A DNA stretch of 64,000 bases from Halomarina ordinaria. Lineage in GTDB: Archaea > Halobacteriota > Halobacteria > Halobacteriales > Haloarculaceae. This document shows positions 29,519 through 32,345 of the stretch, one piece after another. The translations under genes and the position numbers were made by a program. Each line of letters opens with the position of its first letter. Position 1 is the first letter of the stretch. The notes beneath the pieces were generated by a model. That model searched no databases. It worked only from the letters and a program-made list of their open reading frames with translations, and was not told where the DNA came from. The stretch spans positions 1,550,001 to 1,614,000 of the forward strand of contig NZ_JARRAH010000001.1 of assembly GCF_030553305.1 (NCBI RefSeq). The letters are read 5' to 3'.

Positions 29519-29732
29519 CGACGAGGAACGCGACGGACGACGACGGGGGTCCGTGGCCGTCGGGTGCGGTCGTGACCGGGTCGGACTCGACACGTTCGAC
29601 GACGAACATGATTCTTCGTTGAAATCCCCGAAATCAAACGTCCAGAGCGCTGTACCAATTCTCGACGGTCAGGAAGCGAAGTGAAAAAAAGTTACCGCAA
29701 ATATTTGTACCCAGGGGGGTAAGTGCAGTACA
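29519..29732. promoter_or_regulatory. AT-rich promoter region of the HTH-subtilase pair
   Basis: The last 60 bases of this 214-bp gap are AT-rich, with an A-run (29684-29690) and CAAATATTTG, a 10-bp palindrome near 29698-29707, about 27 bases before the ATG at 29733. The palindrome occupies the TATA position, so a regulator bound there would block transcription. No gene is visible in the rest. Confidence 0.45.
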
Positions 29733-30347
29733 ATGTCAGGGCTGTTGCCAACTAGCACCGATGCCAGCTCTGAGCAGGAGGGGGAACTCCGCACCCTGTG
29801 GCTCGACAGCGACGACGCCGGGGAGTTGCTCTCCTCGCTCTCGTCCGACACGGCCCGCGCCGTCCTGACGGCGCTCCACGAGCGGCCCGCGACCGCCTCC
29901 GAAGTCGCGGACAGCGTCGACACCTCGCTGCAGAACGCCCGCCACCACCTCACGAACCTCCGGGAAGCCGGTCTCGTCCGCGTCGCCGACACCCGCTACT
30001 CGCAGAAGGGTCGGGAGATGAACGTCTACGCGCCGAGCGAGGACCCGCTCGTCGTGTTCGTCGGCCGCAAGGAGCGAAAGACGTCGTTCCTCGACTCGCT
30101 GCGCGGCCTCGTCGCGGCCGTCGGTGTGCTCGGCGTGCTGAGCCTGTTCGTCCAGTGGCTCGCCACCCCCGCGGGGGTGGCGAGCGACTCGCTCCCGCGG
30201 ATGGCCGACAGCGTCGGGAGCGGGGGGGCAGCCACGGCGCCGCTGTCGCTCCCGCCCGGCGCGCTGTTCTTCGCCGGCGGGTTGCTCGTCGTCGCCCTCC
30301 TCCTCGCCTGGCAGCGCTGGAACCGGCTGGACCGACCGACCGTCTGA
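29733..30347 (+). CDS. Membrane-tethered ArsR-like winged-helix protein
   Basis: A 204-aa protein with an N-terminal winged helix (about 26-100: LLSSLSSDTARAVLTALHERPATASEVADSVDTSLQNARHHLTNLREAGLV, read in two parts) and two C-terminal membrane spans (about 124-144 and 176-193). The linker between the spans would face outside and is Gly/Ser/Pro-rich. This architecture suggests a regulator that senses the membrane or outside. It starts 6 bp before the secreted subtilase, so the two are surely co-transcribed. The ligand and targets are unknown. Confidence 0.88.
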   Translation: MSGLLPTSTDASSEQEGELRTLWLDSDDAGELLSSLSSDTARAVLTALHERPATASEVADSVDTSLQNARHHLTNLREAGLVRVADTRYSQKGREMNVYAPSEDPLVVFVGRKERKTSFLDSLRGLVAAVGVLGVLSLFVQWLATPAGVASDSLPRMADSVGSGGAATAPLSLPPGALFFAGGLLVVALLLAWQRWNRLDRPTV

Positions 30348-30353
30348 ACCCCG

Positions 30354-31856
30354 ATGGAGCCCCGCGACCTCCTCGCGGTGATGGTCGTCTGTAGCCTGCT
30401 CGCCGTCCCGCTCACGACGCTCCCCGGGACCACGGGCCACGACCCGGCCGACCGGGACACGGTCACGGTCGAGGAACTGAAGGACCACCTCTACGGTCCC
30501 GACCCCGCCGAGACGGCGACCGTCGACCGGGAGGTCCGGGTCGTCCTCGAGTTGGCAGACCAGGGGAACGTCCCGGCGTCCGAGGGACTCGACATCGGCC
30601 GGGTCTACACCGCTGAGGGTACCCGTCACGTCGAGGCGTCGGTCCCCGTCGGGACGGTTCGCGCGCTGGCGAACGACCCGAGCGTGCAGTCGGTCCGCTT
30701 CGCCGACCCCCAGGACGTCGCGGACGACCTCGTCGCGCCGGGCGTCTCGGTCGTCGGCGCCGACGCGCTCCACGACGAGGACGTCGTCGGTGAGAACGTC
30801 ACCGTCGGGGTCATCGACAGCGGCTTCCGGGTCGGCCACCCCTCCGTCGTCGGTAGCGTCGGCTCCTACCGGTCCTTCGACGACGACTCGTCCGACGACT
30901 GGCGCCACGGGACCGCGGTGGCGAGCGTCGTCGCCGACACCGCACCCGGGGCGACGCTCCACCTCGCGTCCATCGGCGACACGACGACCGAAGCGGAGTA
31001 CCGGGCGGCCGTCGAGTGGCTCGAGGAGGCCGGCGCCGACGTCATCGTCGACGCCGGGAGCTACTACGGTCAACCCGGCGACGGGACGGGGAGTATCGCC
31101 CACGTCGCCGCGGAGGCGGCCAACGAGACGGTGTTCGTCACCTCCGCCGGGAACCACGCCGAGCGCTACTGGCGGGGGAACCACACGCCCGACGACCCCG
31201 AGTGGGTCGAGTTCGACGACGACGTCGACGGCAACTACCTGAACGGCGGCGAACCCATCGAGGGGACCGTCTCGCTCACCCTCCGGTGGGACGAGTGGCC
31301 CGAGACCGAGACGGACTACGACATCTACCTCCTGCGCGAGCGCATCGGCGCGCGCGACGTCCCCGTCGCCACGGCGACCGGGCACGACGGCCGGCCGTTC
31401 GAACACCTGCAGACGACCGTCCCCGAGGGGCGGTACTACGTCGCGATACGGGGCGACGGCGTCGAGTCGTCGTCGACGCTCGAACTGTTCGGCAACCACG
31501 AACTCTACCACTGGACGACGGGCGGTCAGAGCGCCCCCGCGACGGCCCCCGGCGTGGTCACCGTCGGCGCGAGCGCGGACGGCGCGCTCCAGCCCTACAG
31601 CGTCCGCGACGGGGTGGACGTCGTCGCGCCGGACACCGTCGGCGCCGAACGCCTCGACGTCGAGGGCGGGACGTCCTTCGCCGCCCCCTACGTCGCGGGG
31701 GTCGCGGCGCTGCTCGTCGGCGAGCACCCCGACCTCCGGCCCGAGGAGGTTCGCGCGCTCCTCGCGGAGAACGCGACGGCCATCGAGACGGACGACGGCG
31801 AGTACGACTTCGGTCGGGTGAACGCCACGGCCAGTTTCGGCGCCGTGGCGGCGTAG
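30354..31856 (+). CDS. Secreted subtilisin-like (S8) serine peptidase
   Basis: A 500-aa subtilase. A Sec-type signal sequence occupies about 5-28 and an I9-like propeptide about 60-120. The catalytic triad is Asp155 (VGVIDSG), His185 (RHGTAVAS) and Ser441 (GGTSFAAPYVAG), with the oxyanion Asn267 in SAGNHA. A beta-rich insertion (about 285-380, TVSLTLRWDEW ... GRYYVAIRGDG) resembling a P/PPC-type domain lies between Asn and Ser. No twin-arginine motif is seen, unlike halolysins. It directly follows the membrane HTH gene, suggesting a linked signal or response. Confidence 0.94.
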   Translation: MEPRDLLAVMVVCSLLAVPLTTLPGTTGHDPADRDTVTVEELKDHLYGPDPAETATVDREVRVVLELADQGNVPASEGLDIGRVYTAEGTRHVEASVPVGTVRALANDPSVQSVRFADPQDVADDLVAPGVSVVGADALHDEDVVGENVTVGVIDSGFRVGHPSVVGSVGSYRSFDDDSSDDWRHGTAVASVVADTAPGATLHLASIGDTTTEAEYRAAVEWLEEAGADVIVDAGSYYGQPGDGTGSIAHVAAEAANETVFVTSAGNHAERYWRGNHTPDDPEWVEFDDDVDGNYLNGGEPIEGTVSLTLRWDEWPETETDYDIYLLRERIGARDVPVATATGHDGRPFEHLQTTVPEGRYYVAIRGDGVESSSTLELFGNHELYHWTTGGQSAPATAPGVVTVGASADGALQPYSVRDGVDVVAPDTVGAERLDVEGGTSFAAPYVAGVAALLVGEHPDLRPEEVRALLAENATAIETDDGEYDFGRVNATASFGAVAA

Positions 31857-31868
31857 CGGCGTAGGGGG

Positions 31869-32345
31869 CTACTCCTCGCGCGCCAGCAGACGACGGACGG
31901 ACGACGTGCGGTAGGTCGTCGCCGCCGCGTCGACCCGGAAGAGGTAGACCGCGAGGACGAGCGCGATGGCCTCCGCCGTCTTCGCGGCCGTCTCGATGGG
32001 TTCGCCGACGAAGTGCTGGACGGTACTCACGAGGAGGCTGGCGTCGTGGGTGTGCCCGAGGCTGGTGTTGTGGACGACGAGCCACGCGACGATCTCCGCG
32101 AGCATGAGGGCCGCCGCCAGCGCGTAGGCCGTCCGGTAGGAGAGCAGTCCCGCCCACACCGCGAGGACGCCGACGACGATGGCGACGACGGAGAGGGCGA
32201 TGAGCACCGTCGTCGTTCGGGGGGTGGCTCCCGACTGCAGCACCGCCGCGAGGTTCGGCGCGATGTCGGCGAGGTGGATCAGGGCGTCGAGGGCGAGCAA
32301 CTGCAAGAGCAGTAGCCTGACGCCCGGGATGAGTCGCTGGTCCAT
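31869..32345 (-). CDS. Four-span membrane protein of unknown function
   Basis: A 158-aa protein with four predicted membrane helices (about 9-29, 46-68, 71-92, 120-141). A loop between helices 3 and 4 carries HNTSLGHTHD, possibly metal-binding. The basic C-terminal tail suggests an inside location. I do not recognise the family. It is convergent with the subtilase, 12 bp between stops, and has a free 250-bp upstream region. Confidence 0.75.
   Translation of the reverse strand: MDQRLIPGVRLLLLQLLALDALIHLADIAPNLAAVLQSGATPRTTTVLIALSVVAIVVGVLAVWAGLLSYRTAYALAAALMLAEIVAWLVVHNTSLGHTHDASLLVSTVQHFVGEPIETAAKTAEAIALVLAVYLFRVDAAATTYRTSSVRRLLAREE

Follow-up and report, generated by a model that had tools for sequence, protein, structure and literature searches.

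In the haloarchaeon Halomarina ordinaria, a gene for a membrane-anchored winged-helix regulator lies immediately ahead of a gene for a subtilase, which raises the question of whether the two proteins act together and, if so, whether the subtilase acts on the regulator's outer loop. The locus lies in a 64,000-nucleotide stretch of DNA (the window) from a genome of 3.61 Mb in 6 contigs. An earlier note had placed the genes 6 bp apart and had read them as a signal module in which an outside event, perhaps protease status, changes DNA binding. The open reading frames bear out this spacing, with 6 bp between the TGA stop codon of the regulator gene and the subtilase ORF (Table 1).

Table 1. Features of the regulator–subtilase locus, in window coordinates.
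Feature	Position	Strand	Basis
Core promoter element (best reading) CCGCAAATATTTGTA, containing palindrome CAAATATTTG at 29698–29707	29695–29709	+	Sequence and relatives
Membrane-anchored winged-helix regulator P0001, 204 aa, HTH_20 and HVO_1552_C	29733–30347	+	ORF and Pfam
Winged-helix DNA-binding domain, residues 36–84	29838–29984	+	Pfam HTH_20
Membrane span 1, residues 126–144	30108–30164	+	Hydropathy; helix 119–144 in AlphaFold read-through model
Outer-loop motif PRMAD, residues 155–159 (R156 invariant in paired clade)	30195–30209	+	Alignment
Membrane span 2, residues 173–191	30249–30305	+	Hydropathy; helix 175–200 in AlphaFold read-through model
S8 subtilase P0002, hydrophobic N-terminus, 500 aa	30354–31856	+	ORF and Pfam
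Putative pro-region, residues about 59–116, I9-like in secondary structure only	30528–30701	+	Low-confidence AlphaFold model
Catalytic Asp155	30816–30818	+	Alignment; Gly in 38/52 aligned clade-I rows
Catalytic His185	30906–30908	+	Alignment
Cleft signature D-A-G-S-Y, residues 233–237 (D, G, S, Y invariant in clade I)	31050–31064	+	Alignment
Oxyanion-hole Asn267	31152–31154	+	Alignment
Largely β insert, about residues 270–390, between Asn and Ser	31161–31523	+	Pfam, model, long Asn-to-Ser spacing in aligned rows
Catalytic Ser441	31674–31676	+	Alignment

The regulator, P0001, matches HTH_20 at its winged helix (E = 1e-14, over the Pfam cut-off) and HVO_1552_C (PF24267) over residues 110–194 (E = 1.4e-13; 51.3 bits against a curated cut-off of 27). 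Kyte–Doolittle analysis of the window's own protein (row L016) places two hydrophobic spans 28 residues apart, and both have helices in an AlphaFold model of the regulator joined to the subtilase as a read-through, made to probe entry of the loop into the subtilase's cleft (mean pLDDT 54.2, loop below 50, 10 rows). By Pfam, hydropathy and model, P0001 has the PF24267-type layout of an N-terminal winged helix and a C-terminal two-span hairpin, which agrees with the earlier description; the loop between the spans is predicted to face outwards. The closest named match is from Halomarina halobia (82%).

The subtilase, P0002, matches Peptidase_S8 (PF00082; E = 6.7e-24, 85.1 bits against a curated cut-off of 21.8) in two stretches that flank the insert. 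Its triad and oxyanion-hole asparagine are complete (D155, H185, N267 and S441), so the triad is not degenerate and the enzyme is predicted to be proteolytic. A model of the subtilase alone (AlphaFold, mean pLDDT 60.0, 7 rows), used for secondary structure and fold search alone, gives residues 60–116 with low confidence the β-β-β-α-β order of a subtilase pro-region; no match to P0002 came from any Pfam propeptide family, with I9 absent at E ≤ 1. Of the earlier claim of an exported S8 protease with a propeptide, the family and the full triad stand, export is suggested by the hydrophobic N-terminus, and the pro-region is a matter of secondary structure. In a Foldseek search with the same model, the highest-ranking matches were subtilisins, and CspA (9pr9) came ninth.

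We surveyed 391 genomes of the class with a regulator profile (A3) and a subtilase profile (A2), scoring at most the best eight candidates per genome for A3 and the best three for A2, so that the counts are lower bounds. A3 matched at least 369 of the genomes at E ≤ 1e-20, and the wider regulator family is therefore nearly universal in the class; A2 matched at least 96, with at least 104 rows, at E ≤ 1e-60. Of the 119 regulator loci inspected, 110 were the best-scoring A3 rows, 30 of them search loci and the other 80 fetched stretches; the remaining nine were the seven named loci plus two paralogues that the window's genome itself carries. This sample was chosen by score to the window's clade, and G124 was the one row fetched from below the best 110. 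A subtilase lies downstream in 59 of the 119 loci; it adjoins the regulator in all six close named relatives (L009–L014) and does not do so in the remote L015 (35% identity). Start codons of relatives were guessed by script, and gaps and lengths there are approximate.

In a quick tree of 114 distinct regulators, one branch (SH-aLRT 97) splits 56 paired regulators (clade I) from 58 unpaired ones. The subtilase is directly downstream in 56/56 clade-I rows and 0/58 other homologues, and the fetched flanks of the 58 hold no A2-matching subtilase. The earlier note had called for such a survey of haloarchaeal co-occurrence and had named rare adjacency in relatives as an outcome that would count against it; within the clade, adjacency proved to be complete. 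Clade I covers 54 survey genomes in 17 numbered genera and the families f1, f4 and f8, made up of 52 from a census that started from the subtilases and of G082 and G184, whose subtilases fall below the A2 cut. In that census of 104 rows, the regulator is directly upstream in 52, directly downstream in 40 and missing beside 12. The regulators of the reversed order form a separate group, clade II (SH-aLRT 100), which is not sister to clade I in the quick tree, where a long-branch warning applies. The same two kinds of protein therefore adjoin in both gene orders.

The pair occurs in at least three gene contexts, with neighbours named by eye from one sequence each. A gatB-like upstream gene is common to all 15 loci of the f1 branch and f8; among 37 f4 loci, an MFS-like gene is shared upstream by 26 and a helicase-like ORF is found downstream at 24, while another six f4 loci have a transglutaminase-like gene upstream. 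Unpaired paralogues are flanked by different, housekeeping-like genes, again by eye. Stable synteny without joint function could draw on the conservation of the gatB-like gene, but it is at odds with the differing f4 flanks, with the reversed order in the second group and with the perfect split from the paralogues. On these three counts, chance or synteny alone was rejected as the main account, and we regard it as very improbable. The pair is a real, well-conserved module.

Several neighbourhoods hold further genes. In the window, the ORF at 31869–32345 (minus strand), convergent to the subtilase gene, has a small and hydrophobic product of 158 aa; related ORFs occupy this position at another six loci of the f1 branch, which include one duplicate species. 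At clade-II loci L164–L170, L172–L174 and L176–L179, a convergent gene follows the regulator; by eye, 13 of these 14 genes encode a secreted-looking, C-terminally anchored protein, which is a possible substrate or third component. The subtilase at L171, of the clade-II group, has Gly in place of the catalytic Asp and no neighbouring regulator was found there, so that Asp loss and regulator loss coincide. Finally, L143, L144 and L145 carry identical 187-aa regulators in different genera of two families, which makes recent transfer likely; each of these stretches holds a second related regulator.

Upstream of the regulator gene, the palindrome CAAATATTTG stands about 30 bp ahead of the ATG, and the 15-mer containing it occurs once in the genome with up to two mismatches permitted. 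Among the 40 of 52 rows listed, 10 of the 13 from the f1 branch, one being a duplicate species, have the related form CCGCA[AG][ACG]TATTTGTA at the corresponding site ahead of the regulator gene. This form is absent from L014, L188 and both f8 rows; L189, with a misplaced start, was left unscored. The f4 rows listed have CGAAnnnTTT-like sequences at this place, as expected for a BRE followed by a TATA box. Because the f4 rows have BRE/TATA-like elements at this place, core promoter is the best reading of the palindrome. A role as the operator of the signal module was rejected: the f4 elements are non-palindromic, which speaks against a dedicated or family-wide operator. Regulation may nonetheless act at the palindrome.

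The outer loop distinguishes paired from unpaired regulators. L015, a long branch at 35% identity, was excluded from the loop count and from a second tree. Two spans are predicted in 56/56 clade-I and 57/57 unpaired rows, L015 being left out, so that orthologues lacking the spans, another outcome that the earlier note held against its reading, did not appear. In a search of the last 85 residues, the motif PR[VIMAF]x[DE] was present in 52/56 paired rows and in 0/57 unpaired ones. Its core form is P-R-[VIM]-x-D, and the four paired rows outside the motif have degenerate forms that keep the Arg, which is invariant in 56/56. Of 25 invariant columns in the 56 rows, R156 is the sole one within the outer loop; P155 and D159 are each kept in 53/56, and adjacent loop columns vary more.

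A conserved loop need not imply this subtilase as partner, since the other regulators have loop motifs of their own. The unpaired group has a separate consensus, with a best loop column of 51/57, and most clade-II loops have a PAS-like motif and no Arg. Many unpaired regulators (among L051 and L086–L161) share a loop consensus around GTMSTE..AADAA, so other outer partners, encoded elsewhere, may exist. Pairing and motif in clade I need one change on the tree, and the association therefore does not stem from independent events; as read from this tree, it is one event, long kept.

We aligned 52 clade-I subtilases (51 distinct). The alignment omits eight of the 54 paired survey genomes, for which the subtilase sequence was partial; the regulators of G159 and G276 are the same as those of L011 and L013, which are included. 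The catalytic Asp is present in 14 rows and replaced by Gly in 38. Asp is found in 13/13 f1-branch rows (seven f1 survey rows and the six named relatives), while Gly occupies the position in 2/2 f8 and 36/37 f4 rows. His, Asn and Ser are kept in 52/52, and so in all 38 Gly rows. Directly after the catalytic His, all 14 Asp rows have Gly, but 31 of the 38 Gly rows have Asp (HGT to HDT, as in the f4 row L192), possibly a shift of the catalytic acid. A Fitch count on a quick tree of 70 rows gives five changes at the Asp position, one Thr row included. Ahead of this position, f4 and clade-II enzymes have about 53–122 residues against 150–169 in the f1 branch (start codons guessed), and being so much shorter they indicate that a pro-region is not general.

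The cleft strand D-[AS]-G-S-Y is present in 52/52 clade-I subtilases but missing from the clade-II enzymes (0/14) and from rows that have no regulator beside them (0/5); the clade-II enzymes have the catalytic Asp in 14/14 aligned rows. Peptide binding thus seems to outlast normal catalysis in the clade-I subtilases. Two further ideas were considered: a furin-like Asp at residue 243 was rejected, being present in 21/52 rows, and substrate-assisted catalysis by the loop Asp was weighed, but the loop Asp is kept also where the triad is intact. Because Asp is Gly in 38/52 paired subtilases, normal proteolysis is not supported as the mechanism in every member. For the earlier idea of an outside event this leaves a divided result: the clade-restricted motif fits action through the loop, but not by ordinary cutting throughout. 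Asp-to-Gly need not mean a dead enzyme, since the activity of subtilisin engineered with D32G can be restored by nitrite or azide and, weakly, by 10 mM chloride (PMC7935941).

The reading we favour, with a probability of about 0.5, is that the two proteins signal as a pair from surface to DNA: the subtilase would recognise the loop of the regulator, with cutting in the lineage of the window and, in other lineages, chiefly binding. Loop recognition is preferred because the data ask for an outside partner of the loop encoded next door and for selection on the cleft beyond catalysis. The regulator would hold its winged helix inside the cell, anchored by the two-span hairpin, and expose the short P-R-[VIM]-x-D loop outside, where the exported subtilase from the same operon would bind it as a dedicated ligand in its substrate cleft. 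With a full triad and a pro-region in the window, cutting is the natural outcome, and there the intact triad would probably cut the loop once the pro-region has been removed. In Asp-to-Gly lineages the subtilase would probably bind the loop, or cleave it at a very low rate. What the hairpin would then relay to the DNA-binding domain is the subtilase's state (its amount, its maturation, or its occupation by other substrates or an inhibitor), with a resulting change in transcription, most simply of the module's own operon. Site-2-type proteases could free the DNA-binding part; M50/site-2-type proteases have four matches at three places in the window's genome, and nothing links them to this regulator. 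We infer contact, cutting, transmission, output and target genes from the computed adjacency, predicted topology, conserved pairing, clade-specific signatures and triad status. Against loop recognition stand the 12 of 104 subtilase rows without a regulator neighbour, L171 among them.

Control might instead run one way: the tethered regulator would sense envelope state or an outside ligand by its loop and switch the subtilase gene on or off, while the enzyme itself would work on unrelated substrates without ever contacting the regulator. The spacing of the genes is operon-like, the clade-II convergent gene could encode the real substrate, and a 2018 account of halolysin genes gives their regulatory proteins as still to be determined (PMC6085418). 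One-way control alone, however, leaves unexplained the loop Arg in 56/56, the invariant cleft signature and cleft residues that outlive the catalytic Asp, and we consider it a tentative prospect, short of even odds.

A variant of loop recognition for most lineages, whose odds overlap with it, makes the subtilase a non-cutting receptor that binds an outside ligand and signals through the loop, in the manner of CspC and CspA; the window's cutting form would then be ancestral or represent a side branch. The Asp-to-Gly change with retained cleft would suit it, as would the β insert and the fold match to CspA, and CspC and CspA are described as S8 pseudoproteases with a signalling role (PMC6636752). 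We nonetheless hold this variant, too, to be short of even odds, as the triad is full in the window and 12 other f1-branch rows, Ser, His and Asn are kept where a pure scaffold would not need them, and CspC has lost different catalytic residues.

Several known systems share parts of this arrangement. SREBP has an N-terminal DNA-binding domain and a two-span hairpin. The predicted architecture here shares both with the SREBP/Site-1 protease system, as well as a short Arg-containing outer loop and, if sidedness and export are as predicted, an S8 subtilase on the far side. The window's regulator is a winged helix, whereas SREBP is a bHLH protein, and homology is not indicated. The motifs also differ, the window-type loop being PRVGD-like and the cleavage motif of Site-1 protease being given as RSVL/RNVL (PMC11231238); most aligned partners have lost the catalytic Asp, and loop cutting is a proposal here. 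It is speculative, and rather doubtful, that the pair is a convergent archaeal counterpart of this signalling, with the Arg-marked loop read by a subtilase devoted to it and, in some lineages, cut. On this view the Asp-to-Gly branches, in which an Asp has often arisen next to the catalytic His, would be a natural form of anion-triggered subtilisin that cuts slowly or only when gated by a ligand, perhaps with rescue by molar chloride, and is tuned for single-turnover signalling. The engineered anion-triggered subtilisins (D32G/D32A) change the same catalytic Asp to Gly but are designed and have no regulator (PMC7935941).

The Csp proteins of Clostridioides difficile, also S8 subtilases, carry a jelly-roll insert of some 130 aa and include members that signal with a degenerate triad, and P0002 likewise has a β insert inside its subtilase domain; CspC keeps Asp and has lost His and Ser, the reverse of the clade-I Gly rows, and the excerpted text mentions no DNA-binding partner (PMC6636752). 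Halolysins such as SptA are also haloarchaeal extracellular subtilases, for which the excerpted text describes cis elements but mentions no adjacent regulator (PMC6085418). Within the HVO_1552-type haloarchaeal regulators, of which P0001 is a member by its HTH_20 and C-terminal hairpin domain, the unpaired rows differ in both subtilase and loop motif. In the open-access literature, with subscription papers and preprints outside its scope, our search found no description of the regulator–subtilase pair among the titles and abstract openings listed and no paper on HVO_1552 or HVO_1553, and narrow open-access searches found none on archaeal membrane-tethered regulators under protease control.

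New here are the P-R-[VIM]-x-D loop signature of the paired regulators and the cleft signature D-[AS]-G-S-Y, kept despite the loss of the Asp. A likely logic is feedback, in which an exported enzyme's load or maturation would inform its own operon about the state of the envelope or of nutrients. The pattern suggests a regulator loop that is touched or cut by the subtilase to report outside conditions. With one invariant residue in the loop and a cleft signature to match it, the conserved pair lends itself to direct testing by point mutation, and the natural Asp-to-Gly series may offer a view of a protease turning into a sensor.
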